DNA from: Bacteroidales bacterium
GTDB taxonomy: Bacteria; Bacteroidota; Bacteroidia; Bacteroidales; S143-33
Reading direction: 5' to 3'
Assembly (NCBI GenBank): GCA_027015275.1
Contig: JALWCU010000184.1
Location: forward strand, 1 to 38,831
DNA length: 38,831 bases
Under the pieces are notes generated by a model. It made no database searches. It was not told the origin of the DNA and worked only from the letters and a program-made list of their open reading frames with translations. Of this stretch, positions 17,904 to 25,959 are shown in pieces. Every line of letters starts with the position of its first letter. The stretch's first letter is position 1. The position numbers and the translations under genes were made by a program.

Positions 17904-19142
17904 GTGAAAGAGGGAACGAGAAAACTATTTGAGAGCCTAAAGTTTTGTAATTATAAGCTGAGTTTTGTCTTAGATATTACTCAGAAGATTATTGATAATC
18001 ATCCTATAGAGGAGATAATGGCTGTGTTGTCTGAGTTGTTGACTCAGAAATTACACATCCGCCAGTTTCTATTTTATTACAAGGGAGATAGTGGTTGGCG
18101 GCTGAAGTTTGCCTTGGGCGTAGATGAGAAGAAATTTAGAGAACTAAATATTGATACTACTTTGAGTAAATACACAGAAATAACCATGGTCAGAGGTTCT
18201 AAAACAGAAGTAGGACTATTTGACTTTGTCATACCAATTATGTACAAGGATGCAGTTTTGGCATATTTGCTGGTAGGGGACTTGGAAGATACGAGCATAG
18301 GGATGAGTCCAGCTGTTAAGAGTTTAAAGTTTGTGCAGACAGTGGCAAATATGATAGTAGTGGCTATGGAAAAGCGTAAGTTGATATTAGAGGCAATAGA
18401 GCGTGAACGTATGAAAAAAGAGCTGGAGACGGCTTCTCGCATTCAGAGGATGCTTATACCTGGAATGGATGTTTTGCCCAAGAGTAGAAAATTTAAAGTT
18501 TATGGTTATTATCTACCTCATTATGAATTAGGAGGAGATTTGTATGATCTGGGCATTCTATCCAAATATGAGTTTTATTTTGCTATAGCTGATGTGTCTG
18601 GTAAAGGTCTTTCGGCAGCATTGCTCATGTCCAATTTTCAGGCAAACTTGCGTGCACAGTTTGCGTCGCACGTACCACTTGAGCAGATGATACGTAGTCT
18701 TAACAATATAGTCATACGCAATTCTGAAGGAGGACACTTTATTACAATGTTTCTGGGTAAGTATAATTTTCGCAAGAATCGTCTTATATATGTCAATGCA
18801 GGACATCAGCCTGGTATTCTTTACGATAAGGTAAACCGAAAGATAAGGATTTTGTCAAAAGGCACAGTAGGCATTGGTATGGTGGACAATATTCCCAAGA
18901 TAGATATTGGGAGGATCAATTTAAAAACATCTTCCAAGCTCCTGCTTTGTACAGACGGGGTAACAGAGTTAGCTCGAGGACGTGATATGGAAGCGGGCTT
19001 GCGCCGTCTTACGCGATTGATTCAGAACGATATGGATATTGATAAGACAATAGATAAAATTATTCGTGAACTTAAGCTTACAAAGACTAATCCTAATGTT
19101 TTCGATGATATAACGCTCTTAGGCTTTGACTTTAATGTTTGA
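17904..19142 (+). CDS. Soluble SpoIIE/PP2C-type protein phosphatase with N-terminal GAF-like region
   Basis: YELGGDLYDL, FAIADVSGKGLSAALLMSNFQANLRAQ, YVNAGHQPGILYD, LLCTDGVTELARG, FDDITLLGF; GTG start. Confidence 0.88.
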   Translation: MKEGTRKLFESLKFCNYKLSFVLDITQKIIDNHPIEEIMAVLSELLTQKLHIRQFLFYYKGDSGWRLKFALGVDEKKFRELNIDTTLSKYTEITMVRGSKTEVGLFDFVIPIMYKDAVLAYLLVGDLEDTSIGMSPAVKSLKFVQTVANMIVVAMEKRKLILEAIERERMKKELETASRIQRMLIPGMDVLPKSRKFKVYGYYLPHYELGGDLYDLGILSKYEFYFAIADVSGKGLSAALLMSNFQANLRAQFASHVPLEQMIRSLNNIVIRNSEGGHFITMFLGKYNFRKNRLIYVNAGHQPGILYDKVNRKIRILSKGTVGIGMVDNIPKIDIGRINLKTSSKLLLCTDGVTELARGRDMEAGLRRLTRLIQNDMDIDKTIDKIIRELKLTKTNPNVFDDITLLGFDFNV

Positions 19143-19763
19143 GCGCCGAAATAATCTGCTAAGCGTTGAGCTATTTTCCTCTTCATTACCATAATCAGAA
19201 GGTACTATAACCTTGGGACTTTCCCACTTGCCGAGCCAGGCTTTTTTGTTCATTGGGAAACCATCTGCACTAAGGAATTTACCGTTTTTGTCTTTTTTTA
19301 TTTTCCATGCTTTGCCCTCGAGTACTACTTTTTTAATTTCAATTACAAGGCTTGCAAGTGAAATATCAGGAAAGCGTTGACCTATTCTGATACCTATTTC
19401 GTTGTTCATTAGGTCCATAATCATACTTGCAGCGTCGGGTAAGTAGTATTCCTCGAGTCTATGTTTTTTATAATCTTGTTTGTTTCCTTTTTCATAAGCT
19501 CTTCCAAGCGAGTTAGCAGTTTTTGAACCGTATTTCTGTGTTATAAGCGCCATCCAAAGAATATGTCTGAAAGCATCTACCTGCCCACCGGCATAATCTC
19601 CATCCAGGTCTCCGCTGGTTATCTCACGATTAGCCATTTCTCTGGCCGTCTCTGATAGCTGCCACACACCCAGAGCAATGGGAATGTGCTTTATTAGCCA
19701 CCAGAGCTCGTATCTATTGAGTGTCTTGATAGTTTTAAATGCATTGCGTATTGGAAAAGACAT
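19119..19763 (-). CDS. DUF6973-like protein
   Basis: GGQVDAFRHILWMALITQKYGSKTANSLGRAYEKGN...YLPDAASMIMDLMNNEIG; 15 bp downstream of the 889-aa sensor gene on the same strand. Confidence 0.6.
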   Translation of the reverse strand: MSFPIRNAFKTIKTLNRYELWWLIKHIPIALGVWQLSETAREMANREITSGDLDGDYAGGQVDAFRHILWMALITQKYGSKTANSLGRAYEKGNKQDYKKHRLEEYYLPDAASMIMDLMNNEIGIRIGQRFPDISLASLVIEIKKVVLEGKAWKIKKDKNGKFLSADGFPMNKKAWLGKWESPKVIVPSDYGNEEENSSTLSRLFRRSNIKVKA

Positions 19764-19778
19764 TAATCCTTCTTTTTT

Positions 19779-22448
19779 TTAGTCAAAATTTAGACCTATT
19801 ATAAGTATATCTAAGTCATGTGAACCAACTAGATAGTTTTCAAAAAACGTTTTTATATTCGTCAGTGAATCAAGTTCTTTTAGCTGTTCTATGAGGTTAT
19901 TTATCTCATCTAATTTAAAAATTTTGTCTTTATTTATTAATTCTTTGACGAAATTATTTGTAAAGGCAACTATGTAGCTATTCTCGGGAATAGTTATTAT
20001 TTCAGATTCCTGAGAACTGCGGGGCGCTAATTGGATTATTTCACTGTTTAGCAGGTATATGAAATTGTTCTTATGACTGGCTTTGAGTTTTTTTGTCTTG
20101 GGTTGATTAATAATAACTGAGAAGTGAACTTGTTGATCAGCAAGGTGTGAACTTATTTTTTTGTTAAATTGGTCTTCAATCTTTTCAATGCTTACCTGTT
20201 CGAAGTTGTTATTTCGTAGGTACTGATACAGAATTTCGTTCATTAAACTAAAGGATATGAGACTTAAAAAAGCGCCATGGATACCAGATATATCGCTTTG
20301 TCCAAAGGCTATTATTTCATAATCATTGACTTTGTGAAACCACCAGAAATTACCTGATACAGTTTCCTTGGCTATGGATAGAATGAAATGTTCGTGCTCT
20401 AAAGGCAAGTTATTTGGTGAGTTGAGCAACGCATTCTGAATACGCAGTGCATATTGTATGCTTTCACTTATTTGTTTATTCAGTTCCTCTATTATTGATT
20501 TTTGTTTTTCCAGAGATTTGGTCTGTTTGGTGAGAAGACTGTTTTTTTGTTCTAGTATGTCTTGCTGGGATTTTATCTCATCGTTCATTGCTGTGATAAT
20601 CTCAGCTGTTATCCTGAGTTCCTCTACTTTCTCATCCAGTTCGATATTACTGATTTCAAGTTCTTTGTTCCGCTCAGCAACTTTCTGTGTTCTCTGGTCA
20701 ATGATTTTTTGCAGATTAATGTTAATGTTTTGTAATTGCTTGAATATCTTTATATTGTTGACTATGGTGGCAATTTGTACGCTTATTAAATTAAATAGTT
20801 TTTCGTCAGAATTGCTGAAATAGTCATGATCTTTTTCCAAATAAATCAATCCTGTGGGATGTCCTTTACTTCCAATCGTAGAGAGAAGAATTGATTTAAA
20901 GCCAAGATTGAATTTTCCTTTGATAAGTCGATATAGTTTGTTTCTATCACTGATGATAAAGGCTTCGTCATTGTGTACAGCCAGTTCAATGAAATCAGAT
21001 AAAATTCTATTTTTTTCGCTACCTGCTTTATTAATCTCAATTTTTCGCTCATATTCTTTTACTCTGTTCTTGTCCACAACCGATCTGAGGTAATAATGTG
21101 GGCCTTCTATGGTGAAGAACATTACTAAGTCAGCTTTGAAGTGTTTTTTTAATGTCTTTAGCAAAGGAACTATACTATCAAATCTAACCTCACTAATTTG
21201 TTTCTTTACTTTATCAAGTTTTTTGAAATAACTGGTTAGTCTTTCTGCTTTGTGTAGCGTGTTTATTTGTTTATCAGATATCAAGATAGCCTGCGTAGTA
21301 ACAAAGATAAACAGTCCGAAATCAGATAAATAGACAGAGTGAATGATTTGATATTCATACAAAACATCATTGAGTGCAAATGCTGCTAAGATTAAGATAC
21401 CCAGGAATGGGATGAGGAAAAGTTTGCTATTTTCTCTCTTAAGAATATGGGAATAGCCAATAATGATATACACAGAGGCAGCACCCAAAGCAGCAATGAA
21501 AATCATCAAGGTTGCTGAGAAAAAACGAGTGGGTGTGACAAAGACAACAATTATCAACAGCAGAATAACTGCATTAGATAGGGATATTATGAAGTTCCAT
21601 ATCTTACTCATGTGATTTTTCAGGAAAAGCTTGAAAAATGCAAGTAAGAAAAATATTTTCCCGTAATTGGTGATGAAGTTTATTTTATGAACAAGTACCC
21701 AGGAGATATTAGGAAAGATGCTGGTTATCAGAAAGTCATCATTAAATAAGGTATATATCCCTGCCAGTAGGATTGAGAAGCCTAGCAGGAATGCATCCCA
21801 ATTTTTTTTCGTATATGTGTACAACCAGAGTAAATAAATTGCAAAGATTATGAATCCGCCAAATATAAAGAATACTGATATAGATTTTATTAAAAAACGG
21901 TTGTTGATGTAATGAGCATATCCAATGACAGGTGCTTTTATAATACCGCCATTGTGATGGTGATAGCTACTGACTTCTATTACAACGTCTAATGTATCTT
22001 TGCTAGTAAAGAATGTTACTATCTGTGTGCCACGTTTAGGTTTTTCTTTTGCTCTCGAATCCCCGACTATGCCGTTTTTCAGATATAATGAATCATTAAT
22101 CCAGATATTATAGGCACAGAAAATATCTATAAGCTTGATTGCATAAAGTGTGTTTTTTTTAGGAAGAATTATTTTGGTGTGGTAGGTGCCATAACCATAA
22201 TGGAAAAATCTAGGATCATTAGCCCAGTTACTGGGTACATCTATCAGGAGAGGTTTTAGTGTTAATCTTTCATTAATTAACTCTTTGGGTGTGAGTAATT
22301 TATGCCAGTAAAATTCCCATTTACCAGCAAGTCGATATTCTTTCAGATCCAGACAGCTAATATTAAATATTGACGAATCTTGCTTAGGCAAAGCAAAGAT
22401 AACGCTTGATACTAAGACCAGTAAATATGTAAATATAACCTTTTTCAT
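19779..22448 (-). CDS. 7TMR-DISM-like sensor with GAF-like region, coiled coil and degenerate SpoIIE/PP2C-like domain (predicted pseudophosphatase)
   Basis: Signal peptide, N-terminal extracellular beta-sandwich (GKWEFYWHKLL...), seven TM segments, long coiled coil, C-term VSGNFWWFHKVNDYEIIAFGQSDISGIHGAFLSLISFSLMNEIL aligning by eye to SpoIIE. Confidence 0.78.
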   Translation of the reverse strand: MKKVIFTYLLVLVSSVIFALPKQDSSIFNISCLDLKEYRLAGKWEFYWHKLLTPKELINERLTLKPLLIDVPSNWANDPRFFHYGYGTYHTKIILPKKNTLYAIKLIDIFCAYNIWINDSLYLKNGIVGDSRAKEKPKRGTQIVTFFTSKDTLDVVIEVSSYHHHNGGIIKAPVIGYAHYINNRFLIKSISVFFIFGGFIIFAIYLLWLYTYTKKNWDAFLLGFSILLAGIYTLFNDDFLITSIFPNISWVLVHKINFITNYGKIFFLLAFFKLFLKNHMSKIWNFIISLSNAVILLLIIVVFVTPTRFFSATLMIFIAALGAASVYIIIGYSHILKRENSKLFLIPFLGILILAAFALNDVLYEYQIIHSVYLSDFGLFIFVTTQAILISDKQINTLHKAERLTSYFKKLDKVKKQISEVRFDSIVPLLKTLKKHFKADLVMFFTIEGPHYYLRSVVDKNRVKEYERKIEINKAGSEKNRILSDFIELAVHNDEAFIISDRNKLYRLIKGKFNLGFKSILLSTIGSKGHPTGLIYLEKDHDYFSNSDEKLFNLISVQIATIVNNIKIFKQLQNININLQKIIDQRTQKVAERNKELEISNIELDEKVEELRITAEIITAMNDEIKSQQDILEQKNSLLTKQTKSLEKQKSIIEELNKQISESIQYALRIQNALLNSPNNLPLEHEHFILSIAKETVSGNFWWFHKVNDYEIIAFGQSDISGIHGAFLSLISFSLMNEILYQYLRNNNFEQVSIEKIEDQFNKKISSHLADQQVHFSVIINQPKTKKLKASHKNNFIYLLNSEIIQLAPRSSQESEIITIPENSYIVAFTNNFVKELINKDKIFKLDEINNLIEQLKELDSLTNIKTFFENYLVGSHDLDILIIGLNFD

Positions 22449-22453
22449 GCCTT

Positions 22454-25282
22454 TTAGATTATTATGCCTACAACCAGGACATCATCGGTCTGTTGGCTCT
22501 GACCTTTCCATTCATTAAATGTGGTTTTCAGAATTTCTTTTTGTAGCTCCGATGGGTATTCGGATATTTCCAGCAGTAGTTTTCGGAAGTTCTTTTTGTA
22601 AAATTTTTCTCCAATAGAGTTAAACTGGTCAGCATATCCATCGCTGAACATGTACAACCTGTCTTGCTTCTTTAGCTGGAACGTATGATCGTCAAATTTG
22701 AATTCTCGTCCTGCCCTAATATAAGCCCCTATTGGGAAACGATTTGCTTTCAACTCTATTAATTCTCCATTTCTGACTATCCACAGGGGATTGTATGCGC
22801 CTGCAAAGTTTAGCTCTAAGGTTTGATCATCGATAATTGCCAAGGCCATATCCATTCCGTCTTTGATAGAGTTATAAGAATATCCCTTTGCTTCTGAACC
22901 TAAGGATCTTATAACATAAGACCGCAGATCTTCCAATATTTGTGCTGGGCTGACCTTAGCATTTTTGTCATCTATAAGATGATGCCTTAGAATATCATTG
23001 ATGTGCATAGCTCCTAGAATGCTCATAAAAGCGCCAGGAATGCCATGGCCAGTACAATCAGCCACGATAATAATAGTCTTGTTTCCTATCTTTTTTATTT
23101 GATAGAAATCTCCACCTACATCAAGCTTAGGCTGGTAAAATATGAAATAATCCTGAAATGTTATTCCTTTGTCCACTTCCAGTATATATGACTGTATCTC
23201 TTTTGCAAAGCTAAGTCCCTCGCTATATTTCTTGTTTTGCTGTTCAGCAATTATTTTTTGTTTAAGTATTTCATTATGAAGTTTCTCAAGTTCAAAGTTT
23301 TTCTTTTCTATTTCTGTCTTATTTGTCTCCAGCTCGAGGTTTATTGCATTAAGTTCGTCATTATAATTACTCAGCTCATTAATTTTCTCCCTTAATTGAC
23401 TTTTTTTATTTTGAAGCTCTATTTCTTTTTTTCTCAACAGTTCTGTGCGCTCTTTAATGAGCTCTTCTAATTGCGCATTGACTTGTCTGAGTCGGAAGAA
23501 ATTTTTAGCATTCTGGTAAATAGATAAAAGCTGCGAAGATGAGGAGAGCAATAGCCTGATTTGGGTTGGAGAAATAAATTTATAAGCATTTTCGAAATAT
23601 ACCAGTGCTTTTATATCACCTCGGTATGTTAGAGGAGCGGCTACTAAGGATTTGATCCGTTTTGTCATTAAATATTGCGCGAGTGGATCATTGAGGCGCT
23701 GGCTCTTTCGTTGTATTTGCTTTCGTTGGCGCTTTGTATATGGATAAAAGTAAATTCGTCTGTGCTCCTGAGCTTTTAGGACTGCGTCTGTGCACAGATA
23801 ATTTTGGTCAACATCGTTTATGCCTTTGGAAACATCATTGAGCTTATGAAGCTTAGCCTCATGCCTTATTATTAATTTATCTTGTTGTCTTTCTATCCAC
23901 AGTCCGCGGTGAAATTTTAGAAGATTATTAACAACCTTAAGAGCTTTACCTACGTCATAAAATGGCACTTTGAGTAGCTCATCCCTTAATTTGTCCAATT
24001 TTTTTAGCATAAAAGAGTAAATCAATATCTCTCTTTCTGCTTTGGCATTGTACATAGCCAGCATTATAGACAGAGTGAATAGGAAAATGAATAGACCAAA
24101 TCCTGACATGTAAAAAGTATGTATAATGTTGAAGTCATATAAAGTGTCATTTATACCCGTAATAAGCAATGCACCAACACCTATTAACGTATAGACAGCT
24201 CCAATTTGATATTTAATAGATTTGAAAAGTATGTAGATTATGTAAAATACTGAAGTAAAAGAGATTGTTATATAGGCATAAAGCAAAATTTTAAATGTAC
24301 TCACTGGCATAAAGATACTATAAAGACTAAAGAAGAATCCGAATGCAGTTAGACCTATAAGGACTTTAATATTAAATTCTCTGGGTACAAGCTGGTAGAT
24401 GTAATGTATAAAAGTTATTGTCCTGTAAAAATACAGAAACCAAAGAAGGTGCAAACCAAAAAACCAATTCAGATTGGGGAATAGCCTATAAATGATATAT
24501 TCACTGTCAAGACCTATTATGAAGGTTTGACCTATTAAGGTTACAACGAAATAAATAGCTCCCAGGTCCTCCTTGCGGTAATAATAGACTAAGAGGAAAA
24601 ATAATGCGAATATCAACGTGCTACCTATCAGCCATGCTTCAATGCCAACATTGAGAATATTAAACTTTTGTATCAATGCAGGGGTGCCAATAACAATTTG
24701 TCTAACCAGACCAGCTTTAAAATGTTGATAATTACTGACTTGTATGACTATGTCCAAGGTGTTTTTATCAATTTTAAGGTAGTATGTCTCGGGATACCAG
24801 CTGGGCTTGGATGTCTTTTTGCTTGTCCCGACAATTCCGTTTTCATCTATAAATTTCCCGTTTACCCACAAGCGGTAAGCAGTGAAAGACCCGTGGAAAC
24901 ATAGTCCTATTTCATGCAAATTCCGTGGCAAGAGTACTTTGATATGATATGTCGCATATCCGAACTTGGGCAAAGCCTTACCATTCATTGAATAATCTGT
25001 CCATGTGCTGGGTACAGGAAAATAATGGCAGTCTTGTTTGTAATTATTAATCTGAGAAGGTAAGAGAAGTTTTTTCCAGTAAAATTCCCAGTTTCCATAA
25101 AGCCCAAATACATAATCTGACCATTCAGCATTTCGTAAGTCCACTATGCCTTTTTTTGCAAAAGTTCTCTCTCGTGTTATTATGACCTTCTGAGAACGCG
25201 CAATATTAGGCAGGAGAAGAATACAGGTAACTAATACTATTCCGAAAAAATTTTTGAATGCTATGTTATTCTTCTGTTCCAA
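22454..25282 (-). CDS. 7TMR-DISM-like sensor with coiled coil and SpoIIE/PP2C-type phosphatase domain
   Basis: Same architecture as the downstream paralogue; intact [58 protein letters not shown]. Confidence 0.87.
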
Positions 25283-25338
25283 ATTCTTGTTATTTTTTCA
25301 GATTTGAAATTTACAAAAAAAAATTAAATTTTAAATCT

Positions 25339-25346
25339 TATTTTTG
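25339..25346 (+). promoter_or_regulatory. Putative TAnnTTTG element upstream of tdk
   Basis: TATTTTTG, 19 bp upstream of the tdk ATG at 25366; -33 element not clear. Confidence 0.35.
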
Positions 25347-25365
25347 TACCAAAAAATATACCCAA

Positions 25366-25959
25366 ATGTTTTTAGAAAATACTTTCAAGTCAGCTAATCA
25401 GAGCGGATGGATAGAAGTCATCACAGGTTCCATGTTTTCTGGCAAGACCGAGGAATTGATTCGTCGCTTGCGTCGTGCACAAATAGCCAAGCAGAAAGTT
25501 GCAATTTTCAAACCCAAACTTGATACACGTTATTCCGAAAAAGAAATAGTCTCACATGACGCTAATTACATCGAGTCGGTTCCAGTAGAAAAGGCCTCTG
25601 AGATATTAGACAAAGGCATTGAATCTGATGTTATTGGCATTGACGAAGCACAGTTCTTTGATATGGACATAGTCGAAGTATGCAATGAACTGGCTAATAG
25701 AGGTAAACGTGTCATCGTCGCGGGCCTTGATATGGACTATTTGGGTAAGCCCTTTGGTCCAATGCCTTATCTGATGGCAATTGCCGAATATGTTACCAAG
25801 GTTCATGCTATTTGTATGCGCTGCGGAAATTTGGCACATTATTCACATCGCAAGAGCACGAGCGATTCTCTCATTGAGCTGGGCGAAAAAGATAAATATG
25901 AGCCTTTGTGCCGTTCATGCTACCTCGAAGCGCTCAAAGAGCAAAACAAAGATGAGTAA
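25366..25959 (+). CDS. tdk: Thymidine kinase
   Basis: [46 protein letters not shown]...CRSC; start set at [15 protein letters not shown]. Confidence 0.95.

Follow-up and report, generated by a model that had tools for sequence, protein, structure and literature searches.

A receptor with a degenerate PP2C domain encoded beside its putatively active tandem paralogue in Bacteroidales

Why would a bacterium keep, beside a membrane receptor with an intact phosphatase domain, a tandem neighbor of the same build whose own phosphatase domain appears to have lost its metal-binding residues? We addressed this question for two genes in a window of 38,831 nucleotides. The window spans an entire contig, and the genome it belongs to (G000, 2.89 Mb) has Bacteroidales MAGs as its named relatives.

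Results

The first-pass annotation of the window had described two tandem 7TM receptors of 942 and 889 amino acids separated by 5 bp, and coordinates, lengths, and gap all proved exact. Both genes lie on the minus strand. The upstream one (22454 to 25282, with a TTG start as listed; PF07695 and PF07228) encodes the putatively active partner, here called 942. It is followed, after 5 bp (22449 to 22453), by the gene for 889 (19779 to 22448), a candidate pseudophosphatase in which a profile built from the same genome, AlphaFold2 (AF2), and Foldseek revealed a degenerate PP2C domain. The spacing is consistent with a single operon. Third in the minus-strand run, and beginning 15 bp past the 889 gene, is a DUF6973 gene (19119 to 19763; PF22322, E=5.6e-17) with the motif DAFRHILW. 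Synteny places it directly behind 889 in G000 and in two congeners, G001 and G002, and in G002 it overlaps the 889 stop codon. We considered it as a part of the core system and dropped it, as its linkage was seen within the genus only and none of the flanking genes checked at the pairs of two other families, f65 and f103, was a DUF6973 gene. Its end overlaps by 24 bp a convergent gene for a 412-aa soluble SpoIIE phosphatase (17904 to 19142, plus strand; PF07228, E=1.6e-37), found at the same place in G001 and G002. On the other side, the start of a thymidine kinase ORF, as listed (25258 to 25959, plus strand), overlaps the start of the 942 gene; its relatives measure 197 to 199 aa, which points to a start farther in, near 25360. 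G000, G001, and G002 share one gene order: thymidine kinase, 942, 889, DUF6973, and convergent 412-aa SpoIIE phosphatase.

We then analyzed the two receptors domain by domain. The layout read earlier for both (signal peptide, extracellular sandwich, 7TM region, coiled coil, and SpoIIE-like end) agreed with the Pfam matches and, for 889, with the AF2 model; it also includes a GAF domain. The 942 protein consists of a signal peptide, an extracellular beta-sandwich, a 7TMR-DISM_7TM region (PF07695, E=2e-11, 44.7 bits, cut-off 29), a GAF-like domain, a linker of 134 residues, and a SpoIIE/PP2C domain (PF07228, E=8.7e-21, 75.2 bits). Its nearest solved relative by sequence is SiaA (6k4e, E=1.1e-21), and the SiaA model NF038263 matched residues 655 to 939, a partial match whose 121.6 bits remain below the equivalog cut-off of 700. 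The acidic residues that 942 had been said to keep are four conserved aspartates: D725, D742, D881, and D933. We take the aspartate of the GGD motif to be a metal ligand. By motif, the four aspartates correspond to the metal ligands of SpoIIE, given as D628, G629, D746, and D795 (PMC5468089). With this ligand set intact, 942 is predicted to be active as a metal-dependent Ser/Thr phosphatase.

The receptor half of 889 was equally recognizable as 7TMR-DISM (PF07695, E=4.6e-12, 46.7 bits, cut-off 29), with the Pfam match at residues 192 to 392 and the AF2 helices outlining a 7TM region at about residues 185 to 400 (21249 to 21896, minus strand). At the other end, a Pfam search for PF07228 SpoIIE gave no match in 889 even at E<=10. 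A profile built from 17 other SpoIIE domains of G000, with 889 excluded, did match its C terminus, over profile positions 1 to 242 of 244 (E=2.6e-17), delimiting a degenerate core at residues 665 to 889 (19782 to 20456, minus strand). AF2 modeled this domain from 17 sequences as a PP2C fold (pLDDT 85.8, pTM 0.83), and the best PDB matches of the model in Foldseek were RssB (E=1.8e-11), SiaA (2.8e-11), RsbX, and SpoIIE (2.6e-8). The full-length model was coarse (pLDDT 70, pTM 0.38) and places, with modest confidence, a signal helix, a beta-sandwich at residues 27 to 177, seven long helices at 178 to 420, a GAF domain at 427 to 539, a long helix at 546 to 675, and the PP2C domain at 687 to 889. 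NF038263 gave a partial match of 43.7 bits against its cut-off of 700, so that 889 is not a SiaA equivalog. By descent and predicted fold, we regard the C terminus of 889 as a SpoIIE/PP2C domain. Because the Pfam SpoIIE model misses 889 and scores the degenerate copies of f103 (see below) under its cut-off, genome counts based on PF07228 cannot reveal such copies.

In the alignment of the two paralogues, D725, D742, D881, and D933 of 942 face N, Q, N, and L in 889. Sites 1 to 3 align without gaps; at site 4, the choice of aligner decides between L and a gap. Neither the TGHG nor the GMD motif is retained. Among the other profiled SpoIIE domains of G000, all four aspartates were present in 30 of 30. 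With four aspartates as the mark of an active PP2C/SpoIIE phosphatase, 942 (D, D, D, D) qualifies and 889 (N, Q, N, L) does not. The by-eye reading that most metal-binding aspartates of 889 are replaced while the scaffold remains was thus borne out, the profile alignment placing no aspartate at any of the four sites. The loss of all four ligands gives good support to the prediction that 889 is enzymatically dead.

A survey of relatives had been proposed to see whether the pairing is conserved. An adjacent pair of such receptor genes was present in two of the three sampled congeners (G001 and G002) and in families f65 and f103; in the third congener, G003, the pair was not found in our search, which we did not score as absence, this genome being 75% complete and fragmented. 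With the threshold applied, a class-wide search returned no full-length relatives beyond the genus. The G002 ortholog of 889 (70% identity) is an intact ORF and harbors the same N/Q/N/L, whereas that of G001 (38% identity) has kept all four aspartates, with DTMMHG in place of DCTGHG. In f65, two or three copies stand in tandem, both copies of the pairs retain their aspartates, and in the downstream ones GHG is changed to GQN, GRN, DTN, or GHN. Two f65 loci are triple receptor-phosphatase arrays (L090:5544-13653 and L092:2915-11018), whose middle copies score lowest and have an altered TGHG with all aspartates present. The expectation of a conserved pair of one active and one inactive copy therefore held for the adjacency and not for the inactivity, as G001 and f65 keep their aspartates.

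In a phylogenetic tree, 942-like and 889-like sequences formed separate clades (support of the deepest forks, 92/90). Since each of these clades holds members of both f1 and f65, the duplication is placed before the split between the two families. The inactivity, by contrast, is younger than the pair, as both copies keep their aspartates in G001 and f65. Because G001 has four, both subunits of the pair were potentially active up to the G000/G002 branch. We also considered the proposition that tandem pairs are the only setting of dead copies and dropped it: six single-copy homologues each have the four aspartates, and six are too few to test it.

A second case was found in f103, where 17 of 21 genomes encode such receptors; in at least 13 of them the two genes sit next to each other on a single contig. 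In six genomes (G206, G782, G785, G783, G787, and G780) the upstream copy has lost its ligand set and the downstream copy is intact; the residues at sites 1 to 4 of the dead copies are T/N, N/K, G/gap, and G/E/D/N. These six copies are monophyletic (100/100), and their ORFs are full length, one upstream copy ending at a contig edge. Their sister group, with a support of only 80/68, is formed by the copies of G781 and G786, which keep the aspartates and carry TGIS for TGHG. The G786 upstream copy (L198) contains one in-frame TAA that is absent from its near relative G781, either a sequencing error or a recent pseudogene. Ligand loss thus happened at least twice independently, at different positions in the pair, the affected copy being upstream in f103 and downstream in G000/G002. 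In both lineages there is a relative with altered TGHG and retained aspartates, which suggests, from few lineages, that TGHG was altered first and the metal ligands were lost afterward.

We next asked whether selection acts on the dead domains. In f103, dN/dS was 0.181 (CI 0.10 to 0.33) and 0.132 (0.07 to 0.23), or 0.154 when pooled (95% CI 0.10 to 0.23); these Nei-Gojobori estimates with codon bootstrap are approximate, yet far from neutrality. The live partner gave 0.114 (0.07 to 0.17), a difference that is not significant. The dead domain of f103 is under purifying selection and therefore not simply decaying. Conservation in dead versus live copies of f103 was similar or higher in the coil (71 versus 73%), alpha1 (76 versus 73%), and alpha2 (77 versus 57%), and the receptor is conserved as well; in contrast, the M3 site (44 versus 91%) and the C-terminal helix (34 versus 82%) have diverged in the dead copies. 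Between G000 and G002, where synonymous sites are saturated, amino acid identity was 67% for the dead versus 74% for the live domain and 84% versus 78% for the linker. Purifying selection on the PP2C domain of 889 itself is therefore presumed.

The linker of 889 (about residues 536 to 675; 20424 to 20843, minus strand) counts 134 residues from the end of the GAF domain to the IQ of alpha0, exactly as in 942. The same length was found in both copies of G000, G001, and G002, although 942-like and 889-like paralogues are only 24 to 27% identical and their other receptor segments differ in length. Elsewhere it measures 133 to 134 residues in f65, 101 in f103, and 94 to 101 or 197 in single-copy homologues. 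Since a homodimer tolerates an indel in its linker and a heterodimer would not, equal linkers favor heteromeric pairing; the length could also have been inherited rather than co-selected.

Discussion

SpoIIE and RsbU are controlled by dimerization and are switched on once two subunits come together at their linker helices and switch helices (PMC5468089, PMC12143880). We propose that an old tandem duplication of a 7TMR-DISM/GAF/coiled-coil/SpoIIE-PP2C phosphatase gave rise to a receptor pair, of which 889 would be a catalytically dead pseudophosphatase retained as the signal-receiving regulatory subunit of active 942. The two would pair in the membrane through their coiled-coil linkers of equal length and their PP2C switch helices. 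A ligand bound by the sensor of 889 would set the register of the linker and, through it, the switch helices and the M2 site of the active subunit, with the outcome that activity is allowed, blocked, or capped at one site per dimer. We give this account, a maintained dead receptor regulating its active paralogue and probably pairing with it through the linker, somewhat better than even chances. The first-pass annotation had also suggested a regulatory or heteromeric sensor pair; matched linkers and selection favor it, and the absence of activity, heterodimerization, the sign of the regulation, and the substrate are inferred rather than read from the sequences. Weighing against the account are the four aspartates of G001 and the want of an evident phosphatase substrate: G000 encodes about 33 SpoIIE domains versus a single STAS domain (C28:1163-1432), and a genome search found no HATPase_c_2 anti-sigma kinase over the cut-off; most of its SpoIIE phosphatases are therefore left with no obvious classical partner-switching substrate.

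Could 889 instead act on its own? As a dead homodimer, it could have reused the PP2C fold as a switchable binding module, either as an adaptor like RssB or to hold the substrate of 942 sequestered in the manner of a decoy. The best structural match of 889 is indeed RssB of Pseudomonas aeruginosa, whose adaptor function uses the PP2C switch and does not need phosphatase activity (PMC5468089), and the purifying selection on the f103 dead domain would suit such a role. However, nothing in it requires the adjacency to an active paralogue that is conserved in both lineages or linkers of equal length, and the M3 site and C-terminal helix are strongly diverged in the f103 dead copies. We therefore consider this reading rather unlikely, if worth keeping in mind.

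That 889 is drifting after the duplication, with a dispensable PP2C domain whose ligand loss is decay in progress, seems improbable. The partial motif loss in sister lineages, where TGHG is altered and the aspartates are kept, is what relaxed constraint would produce, and the C-terminal helix of the f103 dead copies diverges fast. Yet the ORFs are full length in G000, G002, and the f103 clade apart from the copy cut by a contig edge, N/Q/N/L is identical in two genomes that are 30% diverged, and a dN/dS of 0.15 with an upper limit of 0.23 disfavors decay for f103. Very improbable in our judgment is a third reading, by which 889 is still active through a rebuilt, noncanonical metal site. Certain so-called pseudoenzymes turn out to be active, and D719 and D879 or D880 would be close neighbors of two sites that were lost; but all four sites are changed and sites 1 to 3 align without gaps, so that these neighboring aspartates are not in ligand position.

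Homodimerization via the linker and switch helices is regarded as the switch of bacterial SpoIIE-type phosphatases. If the regulatory-subunit account is true, a noncatalytic subunit with its own sensor can run this switch, which would bring the enzyme under two-signal control. The two independent losses, together with intact or half-way relatives (G001, G781/G786, and f65), would then form a natural series from phosphatase to regulator. More broadly, and with slightly less than even confidence, we suggest that Bacteroidales harbor obligate heterodimers of receptor-level pseudophosphatases with active tandem paralogues, a phosphatase counterpart of RetS/GacS that would have evolved at least twice, from arrays with one copy losing TGHG first and then all ligands.

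The arrangement had been noted as not recognized from earlier descriptions, and in the open-licence literature searched we likewise found no description of a receptor phosphatase pair with one dead and one live member. Its ingredients, pseudo-PP2C proteins and 7TM-PP2C receptors, are each known already, separately. 7TMR-DISM receptors feed varied intracellular signaling modules through a helix, and 942, with PF07695 and PF07228, fits the class with PP2C output. SiaA of P. aeruginosa is also a membrane sensor with a PP2C domain, and its model partially matches both proteins; its sensor differs, however, and both score far under the equivalog cut-off. In animals, the PP2C pseudophosphatases TAB1 and PHLPP2 have been retained because they serve in other roles (PMC5468089, PMC12002173); unlike 889, these are eukaryotic and have neither a 7TM receptor nor an active tandem twin. 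RssB of Escherichia coli and P. aeruginosa is a bacterial PP2C relative with retained switch helices, and its main role is independent of phosphatase activity (PMC5468089). It is a pseudo-PP2C and the top fold match of 889 but, in contrast to 889, a soluble response-regulator adaptor for sigma-S proteolysis that lacks receptor domains and an active twin.

RetS is a 7TMR-DISM protein. With its degenerate HATPase output domain, it regulates the active sensor GacS by direct interaction in P. aeruginosa (PMC5992135). There, as we propose here, the output domain of the controlling 7TMR-DISM receptor is degenerate, and the sensor under its control is active and belongs to the same class of output. 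RetS and GacS are histidine kinases, whereas 942 and 889 are PP2C proteins and tandem paralogues that share the same receptor and whose contact is presumed from linker length and adjacency. The closest known systems are RetS/GacS in logic and RssB as a pseudo-PP2C.
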